Assembly (NCBI GenBank): GCA_945829235.1
Contig: CALZUA010000029.1
Coordinates: 1 to 38,798 of the forward strand
Source of the DNA: an uncultured Clostridia bacterium
GTDB lineage: Bacteria; Bacillota; Clostridia; Oscillospirales; Ruminococcaceae
Direction of reading: 5' to 3'
DNA length: 38,798 bases
The position numbers and the translations under genes were made by a program. The notes beneath the pieces were generated by a model. That model had not been told where the DNA came from. It worked only from the letters and a program-made list of their open reading frames with translations, and did no database searches. Position 1 is the first letter of the stretch, and each line of letters begins with the position of its first letter. Shown one piece after another: positions 22,239 through 38,798 of the stretch.

Positions 22239-22324
22239 AAAAATCGTCCTTTCCAATTTTGTTTTGGTATAAATACTGCCTTTATGTATATAATGTCAAT
22301 AGTTTTTTGGTGATTTTGTCGGAA

Positions 22325-22351: not shown

Positions 22352-22368
22352 ATTCGTTTCCTCCAAAA

Positions 22369-23511
22369 TCAAGTGTAACCGTCGCCGCCGCAACTTGTGC
22401 ATTTCTTGTAGCCTGTGCCGTTGCAACCCGACGCGGTGCATCTGATACTTCCGCCGCCGTTGCATCTCGGGCAAACCACATCTCTTTTCTGCGCGTAAGA
22501 GTAATAGGTTTTCGTGCCGTGGCAGGACGGGCATTGCTGATAGCCGTTATCGCATTTTGTACATTTTACCAAGCCTTTTCCTCGGCATACGCCGCATTGG
22601 TGTCCCCCGGGTTTAACCGTACCGCCGCTTGAACCGCCGCTCGAGTTGCCTCCCGAAGACGAGCTTGGCTTTTCGCCGAGAACGGTATGAGCCACGCTCT
22701 CGACAATGCACTCCGTGCCACCCCCGCTCATTTTCACATAGAAATACCACTTCATCTCGCCCGTTGATGGGTAAAAGTCAATTATCGTAAACTGCGCGTC
22801 TTTAAATACATTTCCGTATTTTTCCCATGTGAAAGAATAATTGTAGCCCTTGCTAGTATAGAACCCTTGCTGCATTATTTGATTGACATATTGTTCTTTC
22901 ATATCCGAGAGGCTGTATGTTGTTCCTTTCCCCCAGCCGCTCTGCGATTGCAAATCAAATTTTATGAAACAATCCGAGCCGGACGCGAGACCGTCAACGT
23001 ACACATAGAAAGAGTTGTCGTACTTGCCCGTATGTTTTGCGTTTTCGGCGGGCACGGTCATTTTCTTCGTGTTATTGCACAAAATGTTCGCATTCCCTTT
23101 ATCGGGTACGGTGAACGTGTTGCCTGTCTTGGACGATTTATAGGTTTCTTTCGGCGTTTCGGGAATTGTTTGCTGCGGCTTGCTTGAGCTGCTAGACTGC
23201 GGCTTGCTTGTCCCGCCGCCAATATAGCCGCCGCTGTTATTGTACGGGTTTTCGTAGCTTGGGGAGTTGTTAAGCGCGATTATCGGTAAAGCTATCACCA
23301 CCCCAAACGCCAGTATCGATACTATCATCGCAATACGGTTTATCAATCTCTTGTTGACGGGCTTTTTCGCGGGCTGAGCGTTCATCTGCACCTGCGGCAT
23401 TTGTGTCCGCGCGTCAGATTGCGTTTCAATGCTACGCGAGGTCTGCGCCCCGCAAAACTCGCAGAACCGTGAACCGTCGTTTATCTGTTTTCCACAGTTT
23501 GAACAGAACAT
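22369..23511 (-). CDS. Zinc-ribbon membrane protein with DnaJ-like cysteine-rich C-terminus
   Basis: A 380-residue protein with the same plan as its neighbour. The zinc ribbon (CSNCGKQINDGSRFCEFCG) is followed by a membrane helix at about 55-78, a Ser/Lys/Pro stalk and a domain of about 130 residues (TGNTFTVPDKGNANILCNNT onward). A C-terminal set of four CxxCxGxG-like fingers follows (CGVCRGKGLVKC, CPSCHGTKTYYSYAQKRD, CPRCNGGGSIRC, CTSCGGDGYT). The start is ATG 23511 with GGAGG. It is the most upstream intact member of the tandem zinc-ribbon family. Confidence 0.75.
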   Translation of the reverse strand: MFCSNCGKQINDGSRFCEFCGAQTSRSIETQSDARTQMPQVQMNAQPAKKPVNKRLINRIAMIVSILAFGVVIALPIIALNNSPSYENPYNNSGGYIGGGTSKPQSSSSSKPQQTIPETPKETYKSSKTGNTFTVPDKGNANILCNNTKKMTVPAENAKHTGKYDNSFYVYVDGLASGSDCFIKFDLQSQSGWGKGTTYSLSDMKEQYVNQIMQQGFYTSKGYNYSFTWEKYGNVFKDAQFTIIDFYPSTGEMKWYFYVKMSGGGTECIVESVAHTVLGEKPSSSSGGNSSGGSSGGTVKPGGHQCGVCRGKGLVKCTKCDNGYQQCPSCHGTKTYYSYAQKRDVVCPRCNGGGSIRCTASGCNGTGYKKCTSCGGDGYT

Positions 23512-24079: not shown

Positions 24080-24640
24080 ATGGAGGATTGCGAAATCATC
24101 GAGTTGTTCTTTGACCGTAGCGAAGCGGCTCTCCGCGATGTTTCACGAAAATACGGGCTTTACTGCAAAACTATCGCGCGGAATATTCTCAATAATTCCG
24201 AGGAAGCAGACGAGTGTGTAAACGAAACATATATTCGCGCGTGGGAGTCCATTCCCCCGAAAAGACCTCCGGTGTTACGCGCGTTTCTGGGACGTATAAC
24301 GAAAAATCTCGCGCTGAACAGAGTGCGTTCCCTTAAAACCGAAAATCGCGGCGGCGGTGAAACGGATTTGTCGTTTGACGAACTTGACGATTTTGTTTCG
24401 GGTGAATATTCCGTTGAAATTGAGGCGGAGCGCAAAGAGATTGTTGCCGCGTTAAACCGGTTTCTGGACAAACTTCCCTCGCGTCAACGTCAACTGTTTG
24501 TCGGGATATACTGGGGCTGTTTTAATATCGCGCAACTCGCTGAACAACACGGAATGTCACCGAGCGGAGTTTCCGAAAACATTGCAAAAACGCGAAAACA
24601 ACTCAAAAAATATCTGTCGAAAAGAGGTTTTGATATATGA
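24080..24640 (+). CDS. ECF-type RNA polymerase sigma factor
   Basis: A 186-residue sigma-70-family protein with region 2 (NNSEEADECVNETYIRAWES, about 38-57) and region 4 (LPSRQRQLFVGIYWGCFNIA, then QLAEQHGMSPSGVSENIAKT). Region 3 is absent, as in ECF factors. GAGGAGG precedes ATG 24080. Its stop overlaps the start of the next gene (ATGA), the coupling expected for a sigma/anti-sigma pair. Its target promoters are not known. Confidence 0.9.
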   Translation: MEDCEIIELFFDRSEAALRDVSRKYGLYCKTIARNILNNSEEADECVNETYIRAWESIPPKRPPVLRAFLGRITKNLALNRVRSLKTENRGGGETDLSFDELDDFVSGEYSVEIEAERKEIVAALNRFLDKLPSRQRQLFVGIYWGCFNIAQLAEQHGMSPSGVSENIAKTRKQLKKYLSKRGFDI

Positions 24641-25238
24641 CAAAGGAGCAATTTCTGAGCATTGTGGACGATATCGATGACAAGTTTATCGATGAAATAG
24701 CCGATGTTCCCGAACAGCCGCTGGTTATTTATCAGCACGGAGAACATTTTTCGTTTCGCAGAATTGCGGTTTCAGCGGCAGCGGTTTGTGCAATATCGGC
24801 GGGAATTTTTGCGGCTGTAAAGTTGTACGGAACGCGCATTGTTGCGCCGAATGACAGCGTGATTTCGGGAACTTCGTCCGTTATCGAAAGCGAACCCGAG
24901 CCGATATCCGCAGAGCCCGTTTTCACGAGCGCAAAGGCAATATCGGTGAGTTTGAAATTACTCTTTTCACCGATGAAAATGCACCCGTATTTACCGTAGC
25001 CGTGACGAAAAAAGATGATAAGCAATACGCAGCCGTAGAGATTGAGTGCAGAGGTGTTATCTCTCTTGCAGTGTACCGCGAGGGTGAAACGCGGGAATGT
25101 ATCGGAAGAATTGCCGTTGATAACGGCGCTCACACCTTGCAGATTGATTATGATAAACAAGCCGAAATCGGCGATGAATTTGTCCTCTGCGTTTGGGGAA
25201 AACAATCCGGACAAGCAAGCGGAAAATGGATACCGTAA
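24637..25238 (+). CDS. Anti-sigma-factor-like membrane protein (frameshifted near 24936)
   Basis: Two frames join into one product of about 200 residues. The first (24637-24999) encodes a cytoplasmic head (EQFLSIVDDIDDKFIDEIAD), a membrane helix at about 44-62 (RIAVSAAAVCAISAGIFAAV) and a Ser/Glu/Pro stalk. Adding one base in the AAAGG at 24933-24937 continues it in the second frame as GNIGEFEITLFTDENAPVFT and on to KWIP at 25238. The single-helix layout and coupling to the ECF gene suggest an anti-sigma factor. No ZAS-type HxxxCxxC motif is present. With the deletion the extracellular part is lost. Confidence 0.65.
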
Positions 25239-26521: not shown

Positions 26522-27988
26522 GAACCGTGTAAATGCCAATAATACCCACAAAAAAGTGAGGTATTGCACATGAAAAGAACACACGGATTAGATGAAAGAG
26601 AAATGGAACTGGTAAATCTGCTGATGGCGGATTGCCGGACGACAGGAGATATTCAGGCAAAGTTGAAACAGCTTTTTGCCGGGACGATTGAGCAGATGCT
26701 TGAGGCAGAAATGGACGAACATCTCGGCTACGAGAAGAACTCTGCTGCCGGAAACAGCAGAAACGGTTACGGCAAAAAGACGATAATCAGCGATTATGGT
26801 GAGTGCAAAATCGCTGTTCCTCGCGACAGAAACGGCGAATTTGAGCCAAAAGTCATCGAAAAACGACAGACAAGAACCGACGAGATTGAACAGAAAATCT
26901 TGCAAATGTATGCGAAAGGTATGTCACAACGTGACATCGAAGATACGTTAAAGCAAATCTACGGAACCGAGATTTCGCAAGGGTTAGTTTCGAGGATAAC
27001 CGACAAAATCTTGCCCGAAGTCAACGAGTGGCAAAACCGTCCGCTTGAGGCGATTTACCCGGTGGTTTTCTTCGATGGAATCGTGTTCAATTCACGCAAA
27101 GACAACAAAATTGTCACGAAATGCGTGTACTCTGTTCTCGGCATAAACATGGAAGGTCAGAAGGAAATTCTCGGTACTTGGATATCCGAAAACGAGTCTG
27201 CAAGTTTCTATGCGAGCATCTGCGCAGACCTCAAGAACCGCGGTGTGAAAGACATTTTCATCGCCTGTCACGATAACCTTACGGGGCTTTGTGATGCGAT
27301 AAACTCGGTTTTTCCGAAGACAAAAAATCAGCTCTGCATAGTCCATCAGATACGCAACAGCTGCAAGTTTGTTCCGTACAAAGACCGCAAGTCAGTATGC
27401 GCTGACTTGAAGAAAATTTACGGTGCGGTAAATCTTGATGACGCTGAATTTGCCAAGGAAGAATTCCGCGAGAAGTGGGATAAGAAGTACCCGAATATCC
27501 TGAAATCCTGGGATAAAAACTGGGCTGAATTGACCGTATTTTTCGAATATCCGCAGGAGATTCGGAAGATAATATATACAACGAATGCCGTCGAAGGTTA
27601 CCACAGAATGGTGCGGAAATTCACCAAATCCAAGTCGATTTTTCCGACCGATGACGCTATTCGCAAGGTCGTTTATATGAGCGTTGTGGAGATTTCAAAG
27701 AAGTGGACTATGCCTATACGAGACTGGGGACTGGCATACTCGCAATTTGCGATTTTCTTCGAGGATAGGTTCGCAGCCTGACGGCTGACGAGGGCTCTGC
27801 CCTCGTGCTCCCGAGGTTTATCCGCTTTAGGAATATCCGGTGAAAAATGCAAAGGCAGCAACATTCCTGCTGCTGTCCTTCACCGTTTTATTCCACAGCC
27901 TGCATCGGGTCGCTCCCCAGCGTTGCCCTGTTTGGCTACATTTTTAGTATTGGTACGTTTTGGGGGATTATTCGCGTTTACACAGTTC
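26522..27988 (+). mobile_element. IS256-family insertion sequence
   Basis: A 1467-base element bounded by imperfect inverted repeats. The left end reads GAACCGTGTAAATGCCAATA; the right end, on the opposite strand, reads GAACTGTGTAAACGCGAATA. The similarity continues for about 31 bases with a few mismatches. It contains one transposase gene and a downstream region (27782-27988) with a perfect ACGAGGGC/GCCCTCGT hairpin (27788-27806). No matching 8-9 base target duplication is visible, so flanking deletion or an old insertion is likely. Confidence 0.85.
26570..27781 (+). CDS. IS256-family (mutator-type) transposase
   Basis: A 403-residue transposase of normal family length. Conserved blocks include EMDEHLGYEKNSAAGNSRNG near the N-terminus, the DDE-domain start VVFFDGIVFNSR (first Asp), ISENESASFYASICADLKNR, FIACHDNLTGLCDAINSVFP (second Asp region) and QLCIVHQIRNS. 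The catalytic Glu region is TTNAVEGYHRMVRKFTKSK. ATG 26570 is preferred over the TTG two codons earlier; GTGAGG lies 9 bases upstream. It appears intact and could be active. Confidence 0.95.
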   Translation: MKRTHGLDEREMELVNLLMADCRTTGDIQAKLKQLFAGTIEQMLEAEMDEHLGYEKNSAAGNSRNGYGKKTIISDYGECKIAVPRDRNGEFEPKVIEKRQTRTDEIEQKILQMYAKGMSQRDIEDTLKQIYGTEISQGLVSRITDKILPEVNEWQNRPLEAIYPVVFFDGIVFNSRKDNKIVTKCVYSVLGINMEGQKEILGTWISENESASFYASICADLKNRGVKDIFIACHDNLTGLCDAINSVFPKTKNQLCIVHQIRNSCKFVPYKDRKSVCADLKKIYGAVNLDDAEFAKEEFREKWDKKYPNILKSWDKNWAELTVFFEYPQEIRKIIYTTNAVEGYHRMVRKFTKSKSIFPTDDAIRKVVYMSVVEISKKWTMPIRDWGLAYSQFAIFFEDRFAA

Positions 27989-28055: not shown

Positions 28056-28373
28056 TCAGCCCCATGAATCGTTGAGTTTGTTCGCCGCTTTCTGGCCAAA
28101 AAACATAGCAGTGGTGATATATGCAAAGAATTGACCCCATGTTCTTTTACGACCGCGCGCGTCATAAAGTCCGCCGCTTACTGCATCAAGAGCGTTCGCG
28201 TCAAGCTCGTCGCTCTCAAGCTCCGACTTCAGCTTCTCAATGTGCTCATCGGTAAGCTCTACGCCGTTATCCTTGAACAGCTTCTGAACCTCGCTTTTCT
28301 CCTCAATCGCGCTGAGCTTTGCCATGAACTCGTCGTTCTGCAGAAGTTCCTTCATCTTTTCTTCGTTTGTCAT
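28056..28373 (-). CDS. Nif11-type leader peptide precursor A
   Basis: A 105-residue precursor. The leader (1-68) has the Nif11-like pattern NDEFMAKLSAIEEKSEVQKL, DNGVELTDEHIEKL and the cleavage region DELDANALDAVSGG. The 37-residue core starts after GG and has a basic N-terminal part (LYDARGRKRTWGQ), a hydrophobic middle (FFAYITTAMFFG) and ends NDSWG. It contains no Cys, so neither lanthionine nor disulfide bridging is possible. GGAGG lies 8 bases before the start. It has its own non-sigma-A promoter element, shared with the two other precursors. It is a secreted peptide, possibly a bacteriocin or signal, by inference. Confidence 0.85.
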   Translation of the reverse strand: MTNEEKMKELLQNDEFMAKLSAIEEKSEVQKLFKDNGVELTDEHIEKLKSELESDELDANALDAVSGGLYDARGRKRTWGQFFAYITTAMFFGQKAANKLNDSWG

Positions 28374-28428
28374 TGTTTTTTCCTCCGTTATTGTTATTTT
28401 GTTTCCGGCGTTATTGCCGTTCGTTTAT

Positions 28429-28457
28429 GTATACACCTTGGCGGCGTATGTGTTACA
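28429..28457 (-). promoter_or_regulatory. ECF-type promoter of precursor A
   Basis: On the minus strand TGTAAC (28452-28457), 17 bases, GTATAC (28429-28434). The start codon lies 58 bases from the -10 edge, as in the other two copies. A 5' hairpin CGGC/GCCG (28406-28409 with 28416-28419) follows. Confidence 0.7.
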
Positions 28458-28467
28458 TTTTCGTTTT

Positions 28468-28803
28468 TTACTTGGAAAGTATCTGTCTGATTCCGCTGAC
28501 TGTAGTTGATACGCAACCGTATGCGCAAAACGCTGTCCATGCTACTGTAACAGCACCTACTGCCAAGAGAGATAAGAATCCGCCGCTAACATTCTCAAGA
28601 GCATTTTCGTCAAGCTCGTCTGCTTCGATTATACCCTCAGCCTCTGCGAACTCCTTTACTACCTCGCTTATCTCCTCCATGCTTCCGGTTACGCCATTCT
28701 TTCTGAAAAGCTCCTCAAGCTCCTCGCGGGAAGATACCGCCTTCATGTTCTCCACGAACTCTTCATTGCTAAGTACTGCGATTACACTTTCTCTGGTTGT
28801 CAT
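28468..28803 (-). CDS. Nif11-type leader peptide precursor B
   Basis: A 111-residue precursor. The leader (1-75) contains LSNEEFVENMKAVSSREELE, RKNGV and the cleavage region DELDENALENVSGG. The 36-residue core is hydrophobic (FLSLLAVGAVTVAWTAF), holds two Cys in FCAYGC and ends RQILSK. The start is the ATG at 28803, preceded by GGAGGAAAAAAC, identical to precursor A and C; longer frames upstream lack an RBS. A membrane-active peptide is likely from the composition. Confidence 0.85.
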   Translation of the reverse strand: MTTRESVIAVLSNEEFVENMKAVSSREELEELFRKNGVTGSMEEISEVVKEFAEAEGIIEADELDENALENVSGGFLSLLAVGAVTVAWTAFCAYGCVSTTVSGIRQILSK

Positions 28804-28858
28804 TGTTTTTTCCTCCGTAAATTTAATTTCTGTTCCGGTGTTCTCACCGTTCATTTGT

Positions 28859-28887
28859 GTATACACCGTATCGCCGTATGTGTTACA
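28859..28887 (-). promoter_or_regulatory. ECF-type promoter of precursor B
   Basis: On the minus strand TGTAAC (28882-28887), 17 bases, GTATAC (28859-28864). Hairpin CGGTG/CACCG (28836-28849) follows in the leader. The rest of 28888-29013 shows no gene. Confidence 0.7.
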
Positions 28888-29013
28888 TTTTTTCACAAAA
28901 CATTTTCTTGTTTCTCCAAAAAGTATCTCTTTTATATAAACTATAATTTTTATTGTGTTAAAAACCATTCTGAACCGGCGAACACTTTTGATTTTACAGG
29001 ATTGTAAAATTAC

Positions 29014-29044
29014 AAAAAATCCTGCCAACAAACTGTCGGCAGGA
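29014..29044 (-). terminator. Terminator of the exporter operon
   Basis: On the minus strand a TCCTGCC...GGCAGGA hairpin is followed by six Ts. It ends the operon sigma-HlyD-ABC-ABC before precursor B. Confidence 0.85.
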
Positions 29045-29106
29045 CTATCTTTATTCGGAAAATCAACAACCACGTCAACGTCCTAAACAAAAATTCAAAA
29101 CGTTTT

Positions 29107-31662
29107 CTATGCCATCTGACGACTTGCAAACTGCCGGAAAAGACCTTCCTTCTGCATAAGCTCAGCGTAGGTTCCCTGTTCGGCAATTCTTCCTTTGTCC
29201 AATACGATTATTCTGTCACAATTTATAACCGTACTAAGTCTGTGCGCAATAACCAATTTCGTTGCCGGTATTCTTTCAAGAGTATCGGTTACTGTTCGTT
29301 GCGTTACATTATCAAGAGCGCTGGTTGCTTCATCAAAAAACAAAATCTTAGGCTTGGAGATAAGGGCGCGAGCAATCAGGATACGTTGCTTCTGACCGCC
29401 GGAAATTGTTCCGCAATTCTCGCTGAGCACGGTATTCAATCCCATCGGCATCTCATTGATATCTTCCATAAGTCCGACCGATTTCACAGCTTCTTCTACG
29501 TCAGCCTTGCTCGCTGACGGTGAAGTTATTGCAATATTTTCAAAAATGCTCCCCGAAATCAGCTTTCCGTCTTGAAGAACAACGCCTATCTTTTTCCTCA
29601 GCTCCCTTTTGTCAAGACTTTCAATATCCTTGTTATCATAAAAAACTTTTCCACTTTTGGGCTTCTCAAATCCCAGCAGTATTTTCAGAAGTGTGGATTT
29701 TCCGCAACCGGACGCTCCCACAATTCCTACATATTCTCCCGCTTTGATATTCAGAGAAAGTCCGTCAATCGCATTTGGCGAGTCATCGGAATACGAAAAA
29801 ACTATGTTGCTTATTTCAATTTCACCGGTAATGTTGCCGGGAAGTTCTTTTGCATCGTCATATTCCGGCAATGCCGAAAGAATAGGTTCAAGTCTGTCAA
29901 TTGCCGGTCTGAGCCGCCTTATCTGAAGCATTCCGTCAACCAACTGAGCTACCGCGGCAGAAAAAGAACCGAAAACGGTATTGAACGCAATAAATTCGCC
30001 AATGCTTACCTTCAACTCGGATTTCACTACAATTATATAAAACACTATTGAGAAAATACTGCCGGCGGCAAGTGAAATCACGCTTCCCAATTCTGCTATT
30101 TTGCCCGAAACCTCTTTTCGTACACGCAGGCGGCTGTATGGTTTCAGGAATTCATATATTGCTCGGTCTTCTACTCCGGCAATTCTTATCTTGGATATAC
30201 CACCGACAAACTGGTACATTATCGAGGAGGTGCTTCCCTCCAATTCCGCGCAGGCAAAATCGTGCTTTAGCGACAGGCTGTTGATTATATAATAAACCGC
30301 CGAATAAACCACAGTCATAAGCAATCCTATCCACATCAATTCTGCCGAATACAATCCCATTCGTACAAGGCAGATAACAAGATTTATAATTGCCGCTATG
30401 CTTACAACCATCACGGTTACACACGAAGCCACTATTCCCGATGCCGCCATAACTCTTTGTGCAAGGTCTGCCGATTCAAATTGTCTGAAAAAGCTCTCCG
30501 GCAAATTGAACAGACGGTCATATACCGCATTCTGAAAATCATACGAAATATGATGTGCTATCTTATACTGCGAAAGATTTTTCACCACGGAAAACATTAC
30601 ATTTGAAGCCAAGAACGCGGTCATCAAGCCGCCCAGCTGAAACAATATGCTTTCAGCGCCAAGCGGTATAAACTCGTCATACAGCTTCTGGCTTATAATC
30701 GGTACAATCAATCCGATAAGTGCAACAACAACGGAAAGCACAAGCAAAATCACAGCGTCGGTTGCCTTTAGGCTTGCAATTCCGAAATGAAAAATATCCT
30801 TAAAACCAAGTTTTTTCGTTGGAAGCGGCTTGCATATAACGTATGCATTCACATCATATTTCTCGGCATTTTTTGCAGTAATCTTTTTCCGTTCACCGTT
30901 TTTGGGATTATAAGCTTCATAGGAATGTCCGCCTTTTGGAAAAAGCGCAACCGGCGTTCCGTCAGCGAGAAACGCTACCATTTCCCCCTGATCGTTTTTG
31001 TACCAGTTTTCTTCGAGAATTACCTTGCGATAGGAAAAGTGAGATACTCTGGCAATATCCGAAAGCTGAGGTTCATCGCCGTATGCCTGTTTTACCTTCT
31101 CGTATGGAGCAATTGTTATCCGCTTCTTGCGGCAGATTACAGAAATGCAGTCATACAGCGGTTTCCCGATTTTATCACCAAGCTGTGCTTCGCTGTTTTT
31201 GCTGAACGAATCCTGTATCAGTTCCAGTATCTTACGCGCAGTCTGTTCCCTGTCGCGCTGGCTCTTGATAATAAAACTGTCCTCGGCAACTGTATTTATC
31301 CTATATTGGTCTACAAGTCCTCCGTTGAATCCCTCAACCTCATAATTCCTGATACCTGCTTTCTTCGCGAATTTTTCACAAAGAATTTTTGTTGCACCAT
31401 TCTCAATGATTTCAAGACTTGCCGTTTCAGCCGCCGCAAAGCAAAAACGCCAAGAATTGCCGTCAATGTCATTGTAGCAAAATCCCGGAATTACCTCTCC
31501 GACTGTTGCTTTATAGCAAAAAGACCTGCGCCCCGGTTTTCCGTTAATTACCGGAACAATGTACATAAGAACTTCTCCGTTGCTCACACGATATGCGTTT
31601 ACAGACGATTCGGTTATATAAACACCGCCGCCCTTGAGCAATACAGAATTATCTTGTTTCAT
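29107..31662 (-). CDS. NHLM peptide export ABC transporter, ATP-binding/permease protein (no peptidase)
   Basis: An 851-residue half transporter. The first ~290 residues form a cytoplasmic domain peculiar to this NHLM subfamily (SDIARVSHFSYRKVILEENW), in place of a C39 peptidase. The membrane domain of about six helices runs from about 300 to 590. The ATPase has Walker A GASGCGKST, signature ISGGQKQR and Walker B ILFFDEATSALD. Its start overlaps the previous ABC gene by 14 bases, so it is made together with it; the two probably form a heterodimer or act in sequence. It is last in the exporter operon. Family: NHLM bacteriocin system ABC transporter. Confidence 0.9.
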   Translation of the reverse strand: MKQDNSVLLKGGGVYITESSVNAYRVSNGEVLMYIVPVINGKPGRRSFCYKATVGEVIPGFCYNDIDGNSWRFCFAAAETASLEIIENGATKILCEKFAKKAGIRNYEVEGFNGGLVDQYRINTVAEDSFIIKSQRDREQTARKILELIQDSFSKNSEAQLGDKIGKPLYDCISVICRKKRITIAPYEKVKQAYGDEPQLSDIARVSHFSYRKVILEENWYKNDQGEMVAFLADGTPVALFPKGGHSYEAYNPKNGERKKITAKNAEKYDVNAYVICKPLPTKKLGFKDIFHFGIASLKATDAVILLVLSVVVALIGLIVPIISQKLYDEFIPLGAESILFQLGGLMTAFLASNVMFSVVKNLSQYKIAHHISYDFQNAVYDRLFNLPESFFRQFESADLAQRVMAASGIVASCVTVMVVSIAAIINLVICLVRMGLYSAELMWIGLLMTVVYSAVYYIINSLSLKHDFACAELEGSTSSIMYQFVGGISKIRIAGVEDRAIYEFLKPYSRLRVRKEVSGKIAELGSVISLAAGSIFSIVFYIIVVKSELKVSIGEFIAFNTVFGSFSAAVAQLVDGMLQIRRLRPAIDRLEPILSALPEYDDAKELPGNITGEIEISNIVFSYSDDSPNAIDGLSLNIKAGEYVGIVGASGCGKSTLLKILLGFEKPKSGKVFYDNKDIESLDKRELRKKIGVVLQDGKLISGSIFENIAITSPSASKADVEEAVKSVGLMEDINEMPMGLNTVLSENCGTISGGQKQRILIARALISKPKILFFDEATSALDNVTQRTVTDTLERIPATKLVIAHRLSTVINCDRIIVLDKGRIAEQGTYAELMQKEGLFRQFASRQMA

Positions 31663-33817
31663 GAGTTTCCCCTTCGTTATTGTTTATAAAGCTCCGATAC
31701 AAACCATCAACATTGCAAAGCTCCTCGTGTGTTCCGCTTTGCTCAATTCTGCCGTGCGACATAACTATTATCCGGTCACAATCTCTTATTGCACTTAATC
31801 GATGTGCAATAATTATACAAGTACAACCTCTTCGCTTAATGTTGTCGATAATCTGCTTCTCCACAACTGGGTCAAGAGCACTGGTTGCCTCGTCCATTAT
31901 GAGTACCGTGGGATTTAGCACAAGCGCTCTTGCAATTTCAAGGCGCTGACGCTGTCCGCCGGACAGGTTTGCAGCGCCCTCCGACAAACGGTAGTCATAA
32001 GCGCCGGGCTTCTGCGTAATTAAATCATGTATGCAAGCGTCCTTTGCCGCCGCAATCATATCCGCCTCGGAAACGTTGCTGTTCCACATAGTGAGGTTAT
32101 CGCGAATAGTGCCGGAAAAGAGCGTTATGTCTTGACTTACCGTTGAAATGCTTGCATTCAGCACCTCGTTCGGTATCTCCTTTGCCGGAATACCGTCGAA
32201 CAACAACTCGCCGCTCCATGGTGCATATAGTCCGCTGACAATTTTTGATACCGTTGACTTTCCGCAACCCGATGAACCAACAAACGCAATCGACCTGCCG
32301 CACTCTGCCTTACAGCTGAAATCCTGTATTAAAGGCGGCTTTAAACTGCTGTATCCAAATGAGATGTTTCGTAATTCCACAGAGCCGTTCAGTTTGGTTC
32401 GTAAACCCTGATTCGGAGTTTTATCTGTAAATTTTTCATCAACAGAATAGTTTTCAATGTCCTCCACACGGTCTATATCCGCCTTAACCGCTTGAAAACT
32501 CTTTACAAATCCAACCATTTTCTCCACGGGTTCAGAAAAAGAACCAAACAGCGTCGTAAATGCAACAAGCTGACCGATTGACATTTTCCCGTTGATTACA
32601 AGATATCCTCCTGTCAGGAGTATAGCCGCATCAGCGGCAATTTTCAGCGCCGATGGAATTGCATTTGCAATCTGCTGATAACGGCTGAGCTTCTGTTCAA
32701 GACAAACCGCTTTGGCATTATATCCCAAAATTCGTTCAATATATGCCGATTCCGCGCCGGAAGCTTTCAGAGTACTTGTTATCTCAAGTCCCGCACAAAC
32801 AGCACCGTTTAGTTTGCCGTTATCCTGACGAAATTTTATTGAAAGCTCGCCAAGCTTGTGAGAAGTAATCCGCGTTATCAAAATATTTATCAGTGCGCTT
32901 ACAACGGCAATTGCAGAAAGCAGAGGGCTGTAAATTATCAGCATAATGAGATAAAATACAACTACCACCATATCCAAAATTGTTTCTGCCAAATCGCCTG
33001 TCAGAAAGTCGTTTATGCCGGTGTTACTTGAAATTCTGTTTACAATATCGCCTGCGTATCTCTGGTCAAAAAAGCTTATCGGAAGCCGAAACAAGGAATA
33101 GAGAAATTTCCGCGAGGACAACAATGCCATCTTTTTCTGTAGCTTTAACAGCACTCTGCTTCGATAGAGCGTCAGTCCAAACTGAATGACAATTATAACA
33201 GCCATTGCAATAATAAGCTGCCAGAACCAGTCTGTGTTTCCCGATATAAGCACATCGTCCAGAATAACTTGACTTAGCATCGGAAGCGCAAGTCCCGGAA
33301 AAACCAACAATAGCCCCGCGAACAAGGTTTGTGCAACCGCACCGTATTGTCCCGAAAGACGCTCTGAAAAAATACCGCCTATATTGCTTTTCTTTTTCTC
33401 TTTCTTAAATTCCGATGTGGGAGAAAACGTTAAAACAATGCCTGTAAAACTGCTGTCAAGCTCTTCCATTGAAAGAACTCTTCTGCCGACAGCCGGATCG
33501 TTTATCACGGGCTTTTTTCCGCGAAAGCCCTCGAAGACAACAAAATGATTGAAATTCCAGTGGATAATGCAAGGGGGCGTCAGCTTTTTCAGCGCTTCCG
33601 GCTCTTTTCTGTAACCGTGACACTCAAGTCCGTATTTTTTTGCCGCGCGCATTATGTTTCCCGCATTGCAACCATCGCGGGATACTCCTGTTTCAATTCG
33701 CATCTGCTCAAGCGCAAGATGTTTGCCGAAATAGGCAAATATCATTGAGAGTGAAGCCGCTCCGCACTCCGTTGCTTCCATCTGATATACTGTCGGAGTT
33801 CTTGCATATTTCTTCAT
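31649..33817 (-). CDS. NHLM peptide export ABC transporter with C39 leader peptidase
   Basis: A 722-residue peptidase-containing ABC transporter. The N-terminal C39 domain is intact: catalytic Cys in MEATECGAASLSMIFAYFG, His in IHWNFNHFVVFEGF and Asp in INDPAVGRR. It should cut the leaders after GG while exporting the core. The membrane domain runs from about 155 to 450. The ATPase carries GSSGCGKST, LSGGQRQRLEIARAL and VLIMDEATSALD. ATG 33817 shares a base with the HlyD-like stop (TGATG) and has GGAGG upstream; a longer frame lies within the HlyD gene. Substrates are most likely precursors A, B and C. Confidence 0.93.
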   Translation of the reverse strand: MKKYARTPTVYQMEATECGAASLSMIFAYFGKHLALEQMRIETGVSRDGCNAGNIMRAAKKYGLECHGYRKEPEALKKLTPPCIIHWNFNHFVVFEGFRGKKPVINDPAVGRRVLSMEELDSSFTGIVLTFSPTSEFKKEKKKSNIGGIFSERLSGQYGAVAQTLFAGLLLVFPGLALPMLSQVILDDVLISGNTDWFWQLIIAMAVIIVIQFGLTLYRSRVLLKLQKKMALLSSRKFLYSLFRLPISFFDQRYAGDIVNRISSNTGINDFLTGDLAETILDMVVVVFYLIMLIIYSPLLSAIAVVSALINILITRITSHKLGELSIKFRQDNGKLNGAVCAGLEITSTLKASGAESAYIERILGYNAKAVCLEQKLSRYQQIANAIPSALKIAADAAILLTGGYLVINGKMSIGQLVAFTTLFGSFSEPVEKMVGFVKSFQAVKADIDRVEDIENYSVDEKFTDKTPNQGLRTKLNGSVELRNISFGYSSLKPPLIQDFSCKAECGRSIAFVGSSGCGKSTVSKIVSGLYAPWSGELLFDGIPAKEIPNEVLNASISTVSQDITLFSGTIRDNLTMWNSNVSEADMIAAAKDACIHDLITQKPGAYDYRLSEGAANLSGGQRQRLEIARALVLNPTVLIMDEATSALDPVVEKQIIDNIKRRGCTCIIIAHRLSAIRDCDRIIVMSHGRIEQSGTHEELCNVDGLYRSFINNNEGETHETR

Positions 33818-34665
33818 CAAGAATTGCCTCCGTTCAGATTTCCGAAAATCTTTGAGATTGGGGCATATTCTCCGGTAATTATTTTCGCCGAGAAAAGTGT
33901 ACCGTTGCCAACAGCAAGCTTTTTGCCGTTCGCGTTCGTCCAAAAGAAACCGTTTTCCGAACCGGAATCGGTCTTTATTTCACACACAACCGATACCACG
34001 GGTCCCGATGAAATAAAAATATCAGCAAGCTGGTTATCAACACCAAGAACGTAAGCCATATTGTTTACACCGACAGCATATTCACCGATAGAAACAACAG
34101 TTCCCGTCATGTGACCGTCCCGCTGATTGTCAACGCCCGCAGGATAAATCTGTATTTCCATTCCGCTGTGTATTTTTCGAGCTTCGGTTACGGGAACAAA
34201 ACATAATGCCAAGAGTTTTCCGCTGACAGACGGTGAGTATCTCGCAATCTCATAGCCGGGATATACCTCGGTTGCCGGTATAGTTTCATTTCCCGAGGAA
34301 CAAAGCAACGTTGTCAAAGTACCGTCTTCGGGTGCAGTAATATCCGTTATCGCGCCCGTGCTGCTGCGGACGCGGGCAATTGTATCACCGGCAGAAAAAC
34401 TGCCGCTCGAAACCGTAACCTCTTCGATTATGCCAGCGGATTTTGCATAGATTGCGCAACTGTTTTCCGGCGGCACGATAATGCCATTTACAGTGAGCGT
34501 TTCCGGCAATGTTCCGAAGCAAGCCCATACAACCGCCGCGGCAATTATCAAAGCCACGCCGATAAGTGCAAGCCATGACATTGATGAAGTAACCTGAACG
34601 GCTTTGTCAAGCTGTTCGGGATTTGCCATTTTTTCTACCATTGATTTTCTGAAAAGCTGTTTCAT
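33817..34665 (-). CDS. NHLM secretion protein, HlyD-like membrane fusion protein
   Basis: A 282-residue single-pass protein: membrane helix at about 31-52 (LALIGVALIIAAAVVWACFG), then a beta-rich and lipoyl-like region (IYAKSAGIIEEVTVSSGSFS, APEDGTLTTLL). It has no long coiled coil, as expected for Gram-positive export. It links the exporter outward through the cell envelope. It starts 3 bases after the sigma gene and overlaps the peptidase transporter by one base. The order HlyD-C39 ABC-ABC is the standard NHLM arrangement. Confidence 0.88.
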   Translation of the reverse strand: MKQLFRKSMVEKMANPEQLDKAVQVTSSMSWLALIGVALIIAAAVVWACFGTLPETLTVNGIIVPPENSCAIYAKSAGIIEEVTVSSGSFSAGDTIARVRSSTGAITDITAPEDGTLTTLLCSSGNETIPATEVYPGYEIARYSPSVSGKLLALCFVPVTEARKIHSGMEIQIYPAGVDNQRDGHMTGTVVSIGEYAVGVNNMAYVLGVDNQLADIFISSGPVVSVVCEIKTDSGSENGFFWTNANGKKLAVGNGTLFSAKIITGEYAPISKIFGNLNGGNS

Positions 34666-34668
34666 TTA

Positions 34669-35199
34669 TCAAAGCTCCAGTTCTATGTTGTTTTTGCTGA
34701 AATAATCGCGCAGCGCGGTCATTGCACGGGTTGTCGTAACGCGAACGTTAACCGCTGTCATACCGGTTGCTTCAGCGATTTCATTTGAATTCATATTCTT
34801 AAAATATTTCATAATTATCAGTTCACGCTGACGTTCGTTAAGGGTTTCAAGTGCGTCTTTAAGTACCGTTCTCATTTGACTTAAATATTCCGCCTCAACA
34901 ACGGTATCTTCAAGCTTCTCTTCGGAAGCAACCTCCTCGGCTATTTCCTCACTGTTCTTATGGTCACGATAGTAGTTCTTTATTCTGTTATTCAATATCA
35001 CGAACAGCCAAGTCTGGAATGAAGCTTTTGTTTCATCAAACTTGTCAAAATTCTCATAGCATTTCGCAAAACAATCCATAGTGATATCCTCTGCGTCCTG
35101 CATATTTTGAATTTTCTTCACGGTATAATTTACCGCGATATTAAAATACTTTTTATAATACTCCGAGAATTCTTCATCCAAAGTTTTGGCTATCCTCAT
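34669..35199 (-). CDS. ECF-type sigma factor heading the export operon
   Basis: A 176-residue sigma factor. Region 2 is MQDAEDITMDCFAKCYENFD and TKASFQTWLFVILNNRIKNY; region 4 is LNERQRELIIMKYFKNMNSN and EIAEATGMTAVNVRVTTTRA. The ATG at 35199 has GAGGTGGG in front; a TTG four codons upstream lacks an RBS. It is first in the operon with the exporter. No anti-sigma gene is adjacent; control may come from the upstream kinase module. It is the prime candidate to read the TGTAAC-N17-GTATAC elements before the precursor genes. Confidence 0.9.
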   Translation of the reverse strand: MRIAKTLDEEFSEYYKKYFNIAVNYTVKKIQNMQDAEDITMDCFAKCYENFDKFDETKASFQTWLFVILNNRIKNYYRDHKNSEEIAEEVASEEKLEDTVVEAEYLSQMRTVLKDALETLNERQRELIIMKYFKNMNSNEIAEATGMTAVNVRVTTTRAMTALRDYFSKNNIELEL

Positions 35200-35259
35200 A
35201 ACCCACCTCAATTATATGTATTTTTATATACAGCTTCATTTAGAAACGAAACCATATAT

Positions 35260-35288
35260 ATTATATCACACATCAAGCTGTTTTTCAA
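35260..35288 (-). promoter_or_regulatory. Sigma-A promoter of the sigma/exporter operon
   Basis: On the minus strand TTGAAA (35283-35288), 17 bases, TATAAT (35260-35265), about 60 bases before the sigma gene start. It differs from the precursor promoters, so the operon is not simply autoregulated. No gene lies in 35200-35426. Confidence 0.8.
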
Positions 35289-35333
35289 TAATATTTCCCA
35301 AAAATTGCATTAAATAGTCCTTTTTTTACGAGA

Positions 35334-35369
35334 AAACCCGCCGCGGCATTTTTCAGCAACAGCGGGTTT
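35334..35369 (-). terminator. Terminator of precursor C
   Basis: On the minus strand AAACCCGC...GCGGGTTT closes a large loop, with a T-rich tail. It separates precursor C from the sigma operon promoter. Confidence 0.6.
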
Positions 35370-35426
35370 GTCTTCATTCTATACCGATAAAAGCGGGGTT
35401 AAAAGCAACTGCACAAGCCGTAGCTT

Positions 35427-35768
35427 TTACCATCTGCATTTGGGAATATACTTAACGTATCTGCCGCCGGTGAGCATATTGAACCCTACCGCGCAAAAGC
35501 CGTAAACAAGATTTGTAGCAAGCTTTGCTGCGTCCTTGAAAAAGTTTCCGCCGGCAACGTTGTCCAGCTCCTCAACCGAGCACTCACCCTCGTACTGCTC
35601 CTTGCCCGCTTCATAAGCCGCCTTCACGTCCTCAAGAGAAACGTCAACGCCGTTGTCGTTAAGGCAACGGTGGATTTCCTCCATCGTCTGCGCCTGCTGC
35701 ATTTTAGCCATAAATTCCTCATTGTTGGAAAGCTCTCCAAATCTCTTTGCCGATGCCTCTGTAATCAT
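35427..35768 (-). CDS. Nif11-type leader peptide precursor C
   Basis: A 113-residue precursor. The leader (1-74) has SNNEEFMAKMQQAQTMEEIH, NDNGVDVSLEDV and the cleavage region VEELDNVAGG. The 39-residue core reads NFFKDAAKLATNLVYGF, carries two Cys (C92 and C111), has a second internal GG, and ends YIPKCRW. The start is ATG 35768 with the same GGAGGAAAAAAC as the other precursors. It lies upstream of the exporter operon and downstream of the kinase operon, with its own ECF-type promoter. Confidence 0.85.
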   Translation of the reverse strand: MITEASAKRFGELSNNEEFMAKMQQAQTMEEIHRCLNDNGVDVSLEDVKAAYEAGKEQYEGECSVEELDNVAGGNFFKDAAKLATNLVYGFCAVGFNMLTGGRYVKYIPKCRW

Positions 35769-35823
35769 TGTTTTTTCCTCCTGTATTATGTTTTTGTTTT
35801 TGGCTTTATTGCCTTTCATTAGT

Positions 35824-35852
35824 GTATACACACGAACAACAGGAGTGTTACA
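35824..35852 (-). promoter_or_regulatory. ECF-type promoter of precursor C
   Basis: On the minus strand TGTAAC (35847-35852), 17 bases, GTATAC (35824-35829). A leader hairpin GGC/GCC (35802-35813) follows. The 17-base spacer differs from copies A and B, yet its length and both boxes are the same. Confidence 0.7.
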
Positions 35853-35912
35853 TCTTAAAAAAAATTCCGATTACCGCAGTTTTGCAGGTCATACAGCATC
35901 TTTCTTTCGTTA

Positions 35913-36062
35913 TCAGAAATCCTCTTTATCCAGCTTCTTGAGCAATTTCTTCGCCTTTGCTGACGATGCCGCAAAATATATCACTGCAAACAGGAACGAC
36001 AAAGCGGATAATGCTATCCCGCCCCAGAACATCAAAAAGCCCGTTGTAAGCTCTATTTCCAT
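35913..36062 (-). CDS. 49-residue single-helix membrane protein coupled to the kinase
   Basis: The frame starts at ATG 36062, one base after the kinase stop (TGA-T-ATG). It encodes a short acidic head (MEIELTTGFLMFW), one hydrophobic helix (GGIALSALSFLFAVIYF) and a Lys-rich cytoplasmic tail (AKAKKLLKKLDKEDF). GGAG lies in the kinase's last codons. Tight coupling and good topology signals support a real gene. Family unknown; it may be a small regulator or anchor for the kinase or exporter. Confidence 0.6.
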   Translation of the reverse strand: MEIELTTGFLMFWGGIALSALSFLFAVIYFAASSAKAKKLLKKLDKEDF

Positions 36063-36063
36063 A

Positions 36064-38139
36064 TCAATTCTCCTTTATCATACCAAAAGATTTAAGCGTT
36101 TCTATGGTGCTACGAAGTGTGTCCATATCAGGGTCGGAAACGCTTTTTCCGTCATACAGCTCCTCGGCTTTCAGATAGTATTCGTATGCTTTCCGATAGC
36201 TTTGCTCGGCCGCAGGTTTTTCCTGCTCCTGAGAAATACAGGTGTAGCAGTAATTCATATACACCCAGTAATCCTCCGCTTGATTTTTCATAATATCCAG
36301 CAACGCCGTGCAACGGTCATAATCCTTTAATTTGGAATACAAAATGTTAAAGTAATTTTTTTGGAGAGTGTAGCTTAATTTTCCCTCCTTCAAAACATCA
36401 TCGTAGCAACTTGCCGCTTTAACATAATATTCTTTTTCTCCGGTTTTCTCTCCTTGCTGAACATACTCATAAGCAAGCATTTCGGTTACAACACGGCTGT
36501 ATTTCTCGGCAACAAGCTCCCTCTGCTGTTCCAGAAGCGCTAACATTCGGGAATTCTTGCCGGAGAGCTTGTTTGCTTCATCTCCGGTCATCTTATATGC
36601 AACCAGTATTGTGCGGTATCTGATATAATCATCATTGGTTGTATTGAGCGCACTCTCAAAGCCGGAATAGGCCTTTTCATATTCGCCTTTTGACCAGCTT
36701 ATTTCACCTCGAAGCATATCCAGCTGATCATCGCTAAGCCCATTGTTCATCGCAAGCTTCAGCTCTGTTTCCGCCTCGTCAATGTGTCCTGTTCTCGCAT
36801 AGGCAATGGTGATATCGCGATAACATTCGGGAGTGCTGTTGTTGTAAAACAACGCCTTTTCATACAGAGTAATCGATTTTAGATAATACTTACTGCTCTC
36901 GTCTTTATCATCACTTTTTTCCGCAAGCTCAAATGCGCTGTCCGCACTCAGCATATACATATCCGCCAAAATACGGTCGGTATTATTTGAGTCGGCAAGC
37001 ATTTCCGGAGTTATCACACTCTCGGCATATTCCGCACATTCCTCATACTTTTCCTGAGAACGAAGAATTTTCTCGGTAAAATAATATGGCTTAAGCCGTG
37101 TAGGATAAAGCTTTTCGGCGCGTTCAATAACAATTTCGGCGTTCGCCATATCATTCTGCTTGATAAAATCCTCTGCCCGATTTATATATTCGGTGAATTT
37201 TTCATCGCGCTCTTTTTCCATCACACCGCTTCCCTGATAACTCAAAAAAATACCGCCGACAACAAATACAGCCGCCACGGCAGTTACTATCTCTCTGCGA
37301 ATTTTCAAGGCAACATATCTCTTGTCGAGCTTGTTTACATTCCGCAGTGCTGTCAGCATTTCTTCCGCAGAACGATATCTTTTTGAGGGATTTAGTTCCA
37401 TAGCCTTGCTCACGATATGCACGATACCGTCCGAAGCCTGCGGAACCAGCTCTGTCAGCGGCTTTACATTATATGCCGTATCCGGACGTTCTCCGGTTAT
37501 TATATAGTACAAAAAAGCACCCATGCTGTAAATATCCGAGCGCTCATCTATGTACATTTTCGCTTTCCCTATCGGGAGATTTCCCTCTATTCCGCGGCTG
37601 ATATCCGCAAGCGGAATGCCAAGCTGTTCCGGAGGCGCATATCCCGGCGTTCCTCCTATTGCTTGACTTCCGTTTTTATCGAAAAGCAATGAAACATTAA
37701 AATCTATCAAACATATATCGTCATTTTTGGTAAGCATAATATTTTCGGGCTTTATATCACTGTGGATTACAGCAGGCTTGCAACTATGCAGATACTTTAC
37801 AGCTTCACATAACTGTATTGCATATTTTAGAATCTGCTTTTTTGTAAACCTTGTTCCGTTACTGACAAGCTTGCCAAAATCAGAGCCGTCTATATATTCC
37901 ATCACCGTATAGGTTTCGCCGTCTTGTTCAATAAAATCATATACCTGAGGAATATACGAGTGCTTAAGCCCTTTTATCAAGTCAACTTCCGTGCGGTTGG
38001 AGGCAACAGGCTGTCCATTATGCTTTATTTGCTTTATAACAACATATTTATTCAGCCTTTTATGAAAAGCTTTGTATACAGTACCTCCGCTTCCCTGACC
38101 TATAACCTCGCAAATGCTGTATGTTTGGTCATCAAGCAC
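36064..38139 (-). CDS. Transmembrane Ser/Thr protein kinase with TPR sensor domain
   Basis: A 691-residue PrkC-like kinase. The kinase domain (about 7-270) has glycine loop GQGSGGTVY, Lys36 in VVIKQI, catalytic loop VIHSDIKPENIML (Asp128) and metal-binding DFN (146-148), then GTPGYAPPEQ. The usual HRD is HSD and DFG is DFN; the essential Lys and both Asp remain, so activity is plausible without the usual activation-loop Arg. One membrane helix (about 281-302) leads to an extracellular domain of about 380 residues built from TPR-like helices (EKALFYNNSTPECYRDITIA). The start is GTG 38139 with GGAGG. It overlaps closely with both neighbours, forming an operon. Confidence 0.9.
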   Translation of the reverse strand: MLDDQTYSICEVIGQGSGGTVYKAFHKRLNKYVVIKQIKHNGQPVASNRTEVDLIKGLKHSYIPQVYDFIEQDGETYTVMEYIDGSDFGKLVSNGTRFTKKQILKYAIQLCEAVKYLHSCKPAVIHSDIKPENIMLTKNDDICLIDFNVSLLFDKNGSQAIGGTPGYAPPEQLGIPLADISRGIEGNLPIGKAKMYIDERSDIYSMGAFLYYIITGERPDTAYNVKPLTELVPQASDGIVHIVSKAMELNPSKRYRSAEEMLTALRNVNKLDKRYVALKIRREIVTAVAAVFVVGGIFLSYQGSGVMEKERDEKFTEYINRAEDFIKQNDMANAEIVIERAEKLYPTRLKPYYFTEKILRSQEKYEECAEYAESVITPEMLADSNNTDRILADMYMLSADSAFELAEKSDDKDESSKYYLKSITLYEKALFYNNSTPECYRDITIAYARTGHIDEAETELKLAMNNGLSDDQLDMLRGEISWSKGEYEKAYSGFESALNTTNDDYIRYRTILVAYKMTGDEANKLSGKNSRMLALLEQQRELVAEKYSRVVTEMLAYEYVQQGEKTGEKEYYVKAASCYDDVLKEGKLSYTLQKNYFNILYSKLKDYDRCTALLDIMKNQAEDYWVYMNYCYTCISQEQEKPAAEQSYRKAYEYYLKAEELYDGKSVSDPDMDTLRSTIETLKSFGMIKEN

Positions 38140-38140
38140 C

Positions 38141-38797
38141 TTAATTCGCCTCCTTGTTTTGACGTTTTTTCAATTCGCTGAGTTTTTCCCATATCTTATC
38201 GCTGTTTGTCTTTCGGAAACCTGTTTCCAGCACCTCGATTGCTTCCTTATTCTTTCCCTGAGCCGTGTAAACCTCTGCCCTGCCAAGATAGCCGTTCTCA
38301 TTCATCGGATAGGATATTATTATTTTATCAAACTCCGTTGCCGCAAGTTCGTATTGCTCTTCAGCAAGATACCTTTGCGCCCGCTCAATATTGGCTTTGT
38401 CACCACCGAAAAGAATACCAGATGCAAATATCCCCGCCACAATCAATATTACCGCAACAACAATTGCTATTATGATTATCTTGTTGGATTTCCTTTTCCT
38501 AACGGTTTTACTAACCGAACCTTTCTGAATTTGCTTTTCCGTTTCCGCATTTGTTGCTGTAGCCTTTGGAATGAATACCGTTTCAGCCTCAGATGGTTTC
38601 TCTGCTGTCGGTGATTTCGGCAGAAGAACCGTTTCGGTTTCGGACGATTTTGCTGTTACCGCGGATTTCGGCAAGAGAACCGTTTCGGTTTCGGAGGATT
38701 TCGCTGTTACCGCGGATTTCGGCAAGAGAACCGTTTCGGTTTCGGAGCATTTTGCTGTTACCGCGGATTTCGGCAGAAGAACCGTTTCGGTTTCGGA
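38141..38797 (-). CDS. Repeat-bearing TPR membrane protein (cut by window end)
   Basis: The frame is open to the window edge, so the N-terminus is missing. The visible ~218 residues begin with four copies of a 17-residue unit (SETETVLLPKSAVTAKS) and a degenerate fifth (SEAETVFIPK). A basic stretch, a membrane helix (KIIIIAIVVAVILIVAGIFA) and a short extracellular TPR-like domain follow (RAQRYLAEEQYELAATEFDK). The stop is one base before the kinase GTG. The cytoplasmic Thr-rich repeats look like a multi-site phosphorylation tail. Part of the upstream protein may carry another domain such as FHA or zinc ribbon; it cannot be seen. Confidence 0.7.
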   Translation of the reverse strand, partial: SETETVLLPKSAVTAKCSETETVLLPKSAVTAKSSETETVLLPKSAVTAKSSETETVLLPKSPTAEKPSEAETVFIPKATATNAETEKQIQKGSVSKTVRKRKSNKIIIIAIVVAVILIVAGIFASGILFGGDKANIERAQRYLAEEQYELAATEFDKIIISYPMNENGYLGRAEVYTAQGKNKEAIEVLETGFRKTNSDKIWEKLSELKKRQNKEAN

Positions 38798-38798
38798 G
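38613..38798 (-). repeat. 51-bp tandem repeat coding for 17-residue units
   Basis: The shared core TCCGAAACCGAAACGGT (minus strand) recurs with its start at exactly 51-base steps (plus-strand marks 38628, 38679, 38730, 38781). The array runs off the window. Copies are nearly identical in DNA, showing recent expansion that keeps the reading frame. Confidence 0.9.

Follow-up and report, generated by a model that had tools for sequence, protein, structure and literature searches.

Expression of sublancin and other peptides with double-glycine (GG) leaders involves extracytoplasmic function (ECF) sigma factors. These sublancin-type peptides resemble the system reported here in the GG leader and the influence of an ECF sigma factor, but they are not nitrile hydratase leader microcin (NHLM) systems and have no kinase module. 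NHLM exporters are present, among the matches listed, in many gut and rumen Clostridia, and to our knowledge little is known about what switches them on. Here, we describe an NHLM export island of an uncultured Clostridia bacterium (Ruminococcaceae; contig CALZUA010000029.1) that probably forms, together with candidate precursor peptides, an ECF sigma factor and a Ser/Thr kinase operon, one regulon defined by a shared promoter element. The window analysed is this contig at its full length of 38,798 nt.

The NHLM/Nif11 systems of Haft et al. 2010 (PMC2887384) share with the island the families TIGR03794, TIGR03796 and TIGR03797 as well as Nif11-type leaders; to these the island adds a sigma factor, a 71-aa protein that we name S69, a STAS protein, a TIR/FHA protein and a kinase, and no modification enzyme is seen in it. 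In the main text of that paper no word begins with "sigma", and "kinase" appears once, for a large kinase beside Burkholderia TOMM precursors (PMC2887384). Kinase-activated sigma factors of the ECF43 group are described as typically replacing the acidic region 2.2 motif (PMC13147305, PMC8103513). Examples are PknT-EcfP of Vibrio, where the ECF sigma factor is activated by kinase phosphorylation (PMC13147305, PMC8103513), and PknS-EcfK of Xanthomonas citri, where a receptor of kinase-transmembrane segment (TM)-tetratricopeptide repeat (TPR) layout goes with an ECF sigma factor tied to a secretion system (PMC13147305). The island resembles PknS-EcfK in that layout and in the link between an ECF sigma factor and a secretion system (PMC13147305), but differs from both pairs in a sigma factor that keeps the acidic DAED motif, a sigma-type promoter on the kinase operon, and FHA, TIR and STAS partners (PMC13147305, PMC8103513). 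In the literature covered, which excludes most subscription journals, we found no description of NHLM/Nif11 export joined to a sigma factor and a kinase, of NHLP bacteriocins with a sigma factor, of FHA, STAS and TIR proteins together with a sigma factor, or of Nif11 peptides with an ECF promoter regulon; the one match for Nif11 with a threonine kinase concerns RpoN in Bradyrhizobium. We regard the combination of NHLM export with sigma-linked precursors and a kinase/FHA/TIR operon, not found described, as a putative variant of NHLM export.

The window is the whole of contig C29; below, C denotes contigs of its own assembly, G genomes (G000 being the window's own) and L named loci. The island occupies 28056-38798, with all named genes on the minus strand, in the transcription order: 3′ part of a repeat/TM/TPR gene, kinase, 49-aa membrane protein, precursor P3, ECF sigma factor, HlyD-like adaptor, ABC1, ABC2, P2 and P1. 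Gene calls were mechanical, and some genes first masked by spurious frames (TIR/FHA and PP2C in L115, S69 on C1) were recovered in other frames; family searches used slightly longer starts for P2, P3, ABC1 and the sigma factor. The element TGTAACAC-N13-GTGTATAC lies 55 nt upstream of the start codon (ATG) of all three precursor genes, P1, P2 and P3; these three promoter-like elements had been overlooked in the initial annotation of the island. We take TGTAAC followed by GTGTATA at ECF spacing to resemble known ECF promoters.

28056..28373, minus strand: precursor P1, Nif11-like leader, GG, core LYDARGRKRTWGQFF... (TIGR03798, 24.5 bits, below cut-off)
28429..28457, minus strand: predicted ECF promoter of P1, TGTAACAC-N13-GTGTATAC, 55 nt to ATG (motif scan)
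28468..28803, minus strand: precursor P2, 111 aa, GG, hydrophobic class-II-like core (TIGR03798, 16.2 bits; Bacteriocin_IIc, 17.6 bits; both below cut-off)
28859..28887, minus strand: predicted ECF promoter of P2 (motif scan)
35427..35768, minus strand: precursor P3, GG, core ending KCRW (TIGR03798, 27.1 bits, below cut-off)
35824..35852, minus strand: predicted ECF promoter of P3 (motif scan)

The element occurred in none of 100 shuffles. The whole genome contains 11 sites with up to two mismatches, eight of them distinct once a duplicated contig is set aside (seven perfect, one with one mismatch), and the reversed control gave none. Of the eight, four lie ahead of genes for Nif11-like precursors (P1-P3 and another on C1), one stands at the head of an operon running from S69 to the kinase, and three are found before zinc-ribbon or BspA/LRR proteins. 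In G019, the nearest relative, the same gene order, S69-STAS-TIR/FHA-repeat protein-kinase, carries the same element, and exporter-linked precursors and kinase operon have it in common in both genomes. A chance origin was rejected, since shuffles, reversed patterns and permuted matrices yield 0 to 1 matches. Together, these observations argue for a sigma-controlled peptide export regulon that joins exporter, peptides and kinase operon, which we consider probable on sequence grounds.

The exporter and the sigma factor lie between P3 and P2:

29107..31662, minus strand: ABC2, NHLM permease/ATPase, 851 aa (TIGR03797, 758.7 bits, above the cut-off of 709.4)
31649..33817, minus strand: ABC1, C39 peptidase/permease/ATPase, 722 aa (TIGR03796, 982 bits, above the cut-off of 853.3)
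33817..34665, minus strand: HlyD-like adaptor, 282 aa (TIGR03794, 167.2 bits, above the cut-off of 156.2)
34669..35199, minus strand: ECF sigma factor, 176 aa, DAED motif kept (family searches and alignment)
35260..35288, minus strand: sigma-A-like promoter TTGAAA-17-TATAAT with TG, ahead of the sigma/exporter operon (11 of 12 matches, best of 28)
35330..35372, minus strand: hairpin with a run of U downstream of P3, a likely terminator with limits set by eye (z -3.44 for the fold of 35320-35400; absent from the sites that the sigma-A promoter scan listed)

With all three proteins above the NCBIfam cut-offs, the NHLM exporter is complete. The inventory of the initial annotation (GG precursors, C39 ABC protein, second ABC protein, HlyD-like protein, ECF sigma factor and kinase operon on one strand) was confirmed throughout, exporter and kinase exceeding their cut-offs. 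Its label of a Nif11/NHLM island holds for the exporter and has to be loosened for the precursors, all three of which stay below the TIGR03798 cut-off of 32.3 bits; with PF07862, P3 scores 16.6 against a cut-off of 23.8, and P1 and P2 have no listed match. P1-P3 are accordingly classed as Nif11-like only. Family searches detected no modification enzyme for ribosomally synthesized and post-translationally modified peptides among the ten proteins of 28056-38798, and such an enzyme may be encoded remotely. In L116, a gene at 11040-12029 following ABC2 is radical-SAM-like by its motif, and some members may modify their peptides. G432 (L250, L255, L258, L260) encodes a family of GG precursors with His/Tyr/Arg-rich cores (for example, ...HYHYGPYCVTVRYRNCRW), and P3 of the window likewise ends in CRW. 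About a dozen similar Nif11-like leaders with differing short cores stand at 13419-18015 of L050 (own contig C3), beside an NHLM locus of partner-switch appearance.

Region 2.2 of the sigma factor reads NMQDAEDITMD, so that the acidic DAED is retained and not replaced with a Thr acceptor as in ECF43. The other hallmark of ECF43, a kinase gene nearby, is present in the window and in 6 of the 41 related loci defined below, and hence is no constant feature. Because DAED is kept, ECF43-type activation is unexpected, and we rejected this type of control. Counting every sigma-like or kinase match was likewise rejected as an approach, as many ECF and kinase matches in the genus are unrelated. A strong hairpin (z -3.44) separates P3 from the sigma/exporter operon, whose sigma-A-like promoter is the best match of a scan that is near chance overall (28 matches against a shuffle mean of 20.7).

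The genes upstream of P3 continue beyond the window:

35913..36062, minus strand: TM49, 49-aa membrane protein (also after kinase relatives, 59-78% identity in G006, G030, G015 and G019)
36064..38139, minus strand: Ser/Thr kinase with TM and TPR (PF00069, 150.2 bits, above the cut-off of 31.7)
38141..38798, minus strand: repeat protein, 3′ part, with SETETVLLPKSAVTAK-type repeats (51-nt unit), TM and TPR; 5′ part on C1 (family search and contig comparison)

The repeat-TPR gene is truncated by the contig end, and its start was found at the end of contig C1, the last 55 bases of which exactly match the first 55 of the reverse-complemented window. The end of C1 carries a zinc ribbon and the first SETETVLLPKSAVTAK repeats; upstream lie a TIR-FHA protein, a STAS protein and S69. 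The join is supported by the same gene order, S69-STAS-TIR/FHA-repeat protein-kinase (5′ part), on a single contig of G019. The joined operon would encode S69, STAS, TIR-FHA, the Thr-repeat TPR protein, kinase and TM49. Contig C27 repeats nearly all of C29 in the opposite orientation. Over 38,781 overlapping bases the two contigs differ at 3 positions, each of them close to the first bases of the window; the island is present twice in the assembly, through either assembly redundancy or recent duplication.

The kinase has the motifs IKQI, HSDIKPEN (catalytic loop) and DFN instead of DFG, which we take to provide the catalytic Lys, Asp and Asn. It is not a PASTA kinase of the PknB/PrkC type (NF033483, 145.9 against 450 bits), having TPR in place of PASTA repeats. 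In the repeat protein, the repeats and the TPR part lie on opposite sides of the TM, and the repeats contain T-x-x-[V/L] (TETVLL here; DPPTMLLG, APTMMLN and SATVILPK in relatives), presumably the type of site bound by FHA domains once phosphorylated; an FHA protein is encoded in the same operon. The G019 protein passes the Pfam cut-offs for FHA and, barely, TIR_2 (29.6 against 28), and the C1 protein that for STAS. By eye, the STAS Ser, which we assume to correspond to the phosphorylated one of SpoIIAA, is kept in 8 of 11 distinct rows of the related group, L117 included. Five rows retain, by eye, the presumably catalytic acidic position within the TIR motif SHNCRRE, but L129, G019 and the window's species have lost it; because of this loss, the TIR domain in these three is probably a scaffold. 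At 16264-18367 (plus strand) of the window, two overlapping frames encode a second Ser/Thr kinase with a zinc ribbon, the first part of which is related to the exporter-side kinases of L100 (38%) and L109 (36%).

Conservation was assessed on 80 ABC1 loci, an incomplete sample comprising the best 80 of at least 422 confirmed relatives from one scan. They were divided into a related group (41 loci, ABC1 identity at least 54%) and a distant group (39 loci, below 51%); contigs vary in length, and absences in short stretches carry little weight. Every reading frame of the 80 loci was searched with profiles whose seeds came from these loci themselves, chiefly from related ones, a choice that biases the tally toward the related group. 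The counts in related and distant loci, respectively, were 21 and 10 for the sigma factor, 11 and 1 for S69, 20 and 7 for STAS, 9 and 1 for TIR, 8 and 0 for FHA, 5 and 0 for PP2C, 6 and 0 for the kinase, 8 and 6 for RsbU, and 5 and 7 for RsbW. Uncorrected Fisher p values range from 0.003 to 0.055 from sigma to kinase (0.026 for the kinase) and exceed 0.5 for RsbU and RsbW. S69 and STAS together with TIR or FHA occur in 10 of the related and none of the distant loci; all six kinase loci are among these ten, and the other 70 loci have no kinase. The association of exporter, sigma factor and kinase proposed in the initial annotation therefore recurs, always with S69, STAS and TIR/FHA, in a minority of related loci. 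In a tree of 49 ABC1 rows, the ten module loci and the window fall into one 17-row clade (support 98/97). Its other six rows are G019, which has the module on contigs other than that of the exporter, and five in which the sequence stops in ABC2 or less than about 4 kb beyond. Mapped on this tree, the module requires 6 gains or losses, against a shuffled mean of 10.2, with 0 of 500 shuffles as low. The arrangement is complete in Flavonifractor An112, where one strand carries SIG-HlyD-ABC1-ABC2-site-S69-STAS-TIR/FHA-PP2C-kinase. The kinase of Schaedlerella (L125) resembles that of the window (38% over 351 aligned columns).

A partner switch of the RsbV/RsbW/RsbU kind does not fit these loci: within the locus stretches searched, the RsbW profile, built from one seed, matched none of the ten S69-STAS-TIR/FHA loci. 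Loci of partner-switch appearance (own C3, G030, G034, G040, G041; by eye) are like the window in an NHLM exporter, an ECF sigma factor and an S69-like protein immediately upstream of it; unlike the window, they have STAS with RsbU/RsbW-like proteins near the exporter, TIR, FHA and kinase were not seen there, and no distant locus has a strong element (score above 21, see below). In L235 and L236 (G298 and G060), ABC1/ABC2 of the related group (54-55%) directly adjoin genes that look by eye like contractile tail sheath genes, and no sigma factor or S69 module was recognised there.

A matrix built from ten sites of G000 and G019 was run on the 80 loci. Among the 41 related loci, 10 had sites scoring above 21 (12 sites in all), as against none of the 39 distant loci; the reversed control gave 0 and permuted matrices a mean of 0.05. 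Without L098, G019's own locus and part of the training set, 11 sites in 9 of 40 related loci remain. Ten of the 12 strong sites precede a Nif11-like precursor or S69, the exceptions being L114 (wrong orientation) and L116 (contig end), and eight start 7-54 nt past the ABC2 stop. Nine relatives' genomes, chosen for their loci, contain 24 sites with at most one mismatch (control 1), with at least one in seven of the nine. Nine of the 24 were already in the locus scan; of the other 15, eight stand before a Nif11-like precursor or a kinase: six sites of G432 lie ahead of five GG precursor genes spread over four contigs, with one site 381 nt away, while G435 has one site ahead of a precursor and another, with one mismatch, 35 nt upstream of a kinase. 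Neither kind of gene follows the remaining seven sites.

Of 43 genomes of the genus, only G000 (10, counting the duplicate) and G019 (1), whose exporters are the closest, have perfect sites; with one mismatch, sites occur in 5 of 43 (control 1). Those in G001 and G025 have no clear promoter position, and G015, which has a related exporter, has two, one ahead of a secreted-type protein of 361 aa and the other ahead of a membrane-type protein of 427 aa. In a family sample of 396 genomes, the exact 14-base match was found in 7 (control 1): one of the four matches in G308 precedes a Nif11-like precursor and the other three look like chance, inspection of the single matches in G402, G370, G112 and G398 gave nothing convincing, and G059 likewise has one. 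TIGR03796 retrieves many ordinary ABC transporters over the genus, and 10 of 43 genomes exceed its cut-off.

The proposed regulon would operate as follows. A housekeeping-type promoter would drive the ECF sigma factor and the NHLM exporter; the sigma factor would then read TGTAACAC-N13-GTGTATAC promoters of Nif11-like precursors, of surface BspA/LRR proteins and of the S69-STAS-TIR/FHA-TPR-kinase-TM49 operon. Leaders would be cut after GG by ABC1 and the cores exported. The kinase, its TPR part outside, would phosphorylate the Thr repeats of the TPR protein; the FHA domain would read the phosphorylated repeats, and PP2C, where present, would reverse the modification. Since the kinase operon itself carries a sigma-type element, the kinase would most likely serve as a feedback or state sensor of the regulon rather than as one-way input. 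The initial suggestion that it senses outside conditions and acts through the sigma factor is weakened by this element and by the retained DAED; feedback is as likely as kinase control of release through the sigma factor.

Several findings weigh against this reading. The score limit of 21 was chosen after the first matrix listing had been inspected, and under the first limit, 16.9, 12 of the 41 related loci had a site (16 sites in all), as did 3 of the 39 distant loci, with one site each. Four of the ten S69-STAS-TIR/FHA loci (L103, L109, L125, L129) have no site above 21; L103 shows, by eye, a weaker variant, and the genomes of L125 and L109 contain no site with up to one mismatch. Because of these four loci and the post hoc limit, we lowered our confidence in the regulon slightly and raised that in an unrelated kinase neighbour slightly. 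The strong site of L114 points away from any gene, and in the own genome one site of the zinc-ribbon or BspA/LRR group stands as far as 411 nt from its gene. With a looser pattern, the own genome yielded 12 sites and the control 1 match; two extras (C16, C21) with other spacing were excluded from the count. No anti-sigma gene was recognised beside the sigma gene, and no other control of it was found. Only 6 of the 41 related loci have a kinase, and these kinases are of more than one type; relatives of the window's kinase in G019 and G015 lie on a different contig from the exporter, and those in G006 (73% complete) and G030 have FHA and PP2C neighbours in genomes where no exporter of this clade was found. 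The related exporters of G298 and G060 lack sigma factor, module and exact element in the stretches and genomes seen. The initial expectation that the kinase operon be conserved beside the exporter is thus borne out in six related loci and contradicted in these four kinase-bearing genomes; the kinase is recurrent beside the exporter but, judging from the loci sampled, not strictly inherited with it. Finally, the sequence itself shows the genes, the element and the distribution and conservation of the element, whereas recognition of the element by this sigma factor, export of the peptides and each phosphorylation step are what we infer from it.

Three other explanations were weighed. The locus might hold an ordinary NHLM bacteriocin cluster and its dedicated regulator, next to an unrelated kinase operon, as the kinase relatives away from any clade exporter (G006, G030) or on other contigs (G019, G015) would suggest; the promoter element common to both sides in two genomes, the restriction of the kinase to related loci (6 of 41 against 0 of 39) and the site before another kinase in G435 make this improbable. 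Equally doubtful is direct phosphorylation and activation of the sigma factor by the kinase in the manner of PknT-EcfP and PknS-EcfK, with an outside signal leading in one direction to peptide production. It would agree with the PknS-like kinase-TM-TPR layout (PMC13147305), the lack of a recognised anti-sigma gene and the short kinase-sigma distance in the window and L125 (within about 1.2 kb; about 3-11 kb in L100, L114, L115 and L129), but NMQDAEDITMD is kept where ECF43 sigma factors replace the motif, the kinase is found in only a minority of the 21 related loci with this sigma type, and its operon carries the sigma-type element.

Somewhat less remote, although still unlikely, is a regulon for cell-surface remodelling or adhesion in which the peptides are accessory signals and not bacteriocins. 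Three of the eight distinct own sites lie before zinc-ribbon/TM/TPR or BspA-LRR proteins, a G019 site is followed by a precursor and then an RCC1-like TM-TPR protein (repeat named by eye), and a G432 site is ahead of a large secreted protein. Against it, four of the eight own sites and six of the nine in G432 (five genes) precede precursors, and P2 resembles class II bacteriocins, if below the cut-off.

Within the proposed sigma-controlled export regulon, the role of S69 is a separate matter. The S69 proteins tested have no confident Pfam or NCBIfam match. They copy the end of a GG leader, E-L-S-x-E-x-L-x-x-V-S-A-A, with AA at the GG position of precursors (12 of 13 rows AA, one AG), whereas of 109 distinct Nif11-like leader frames 89 have G followed by G, S or A, 4 have AG or AS, and 16 fall outside the search pattern, several of these showing GG. 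In element-headed operons of the clade, S69 is first or stands beside the first precursors. S69-profile proteins directly precede the sigma gene (by overlap or 2 nt) in L049, L050 and L173, as do similar proteins of 59-61 aa, recognised by eye only, in L053, L054, L056 and L057. Since AA replaces GG, S69 could dock on the C39 domain of the exporter yet escape the normal cut, and the tail of S69, which is conserved (often YxxF...R/K), could report exporter occupancy to the sigma/STAS/TIR-FHA/kinase machinery. That S69 is a pseudo-precursor coupling the sigma factor to export is a speculative idea to which we give little credence; if true, the peptides would be under a sigma switch gated by export, with a logic like that of FlgM in the flagellar system.

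One promoter signature thus appears to tie a kinase/FHA/TIR signalling operon to the precursor genes and the exporter, and offers a defined candidate sigma-promoter pair. The element is also a means of finding peptide genes away from the exporter, such as the five in the Oscillospiraceae genome G432, and S69 represents a small protein family with no Pfam or NCBIfam match for the members tested. Should the kinase feed back on the sigma factor, the ECF factor would be controlled in a way that the ECF43 scheme does not cover.

Elsewhere in the window, a 405-aa ORF at 26564-27781 (plus strand), at the downstream edge of the island, is transposase-like, presumably of the IS256 type. A further ECF-type sigma factor at 24080-24999 (plus strand) is followed by a membrane protein, by eye perhaps an anti-sigma factor, and four tandem zinc-ribbon membrane proteins, alike in look, are encoded at 18833-23511 (minus strand).

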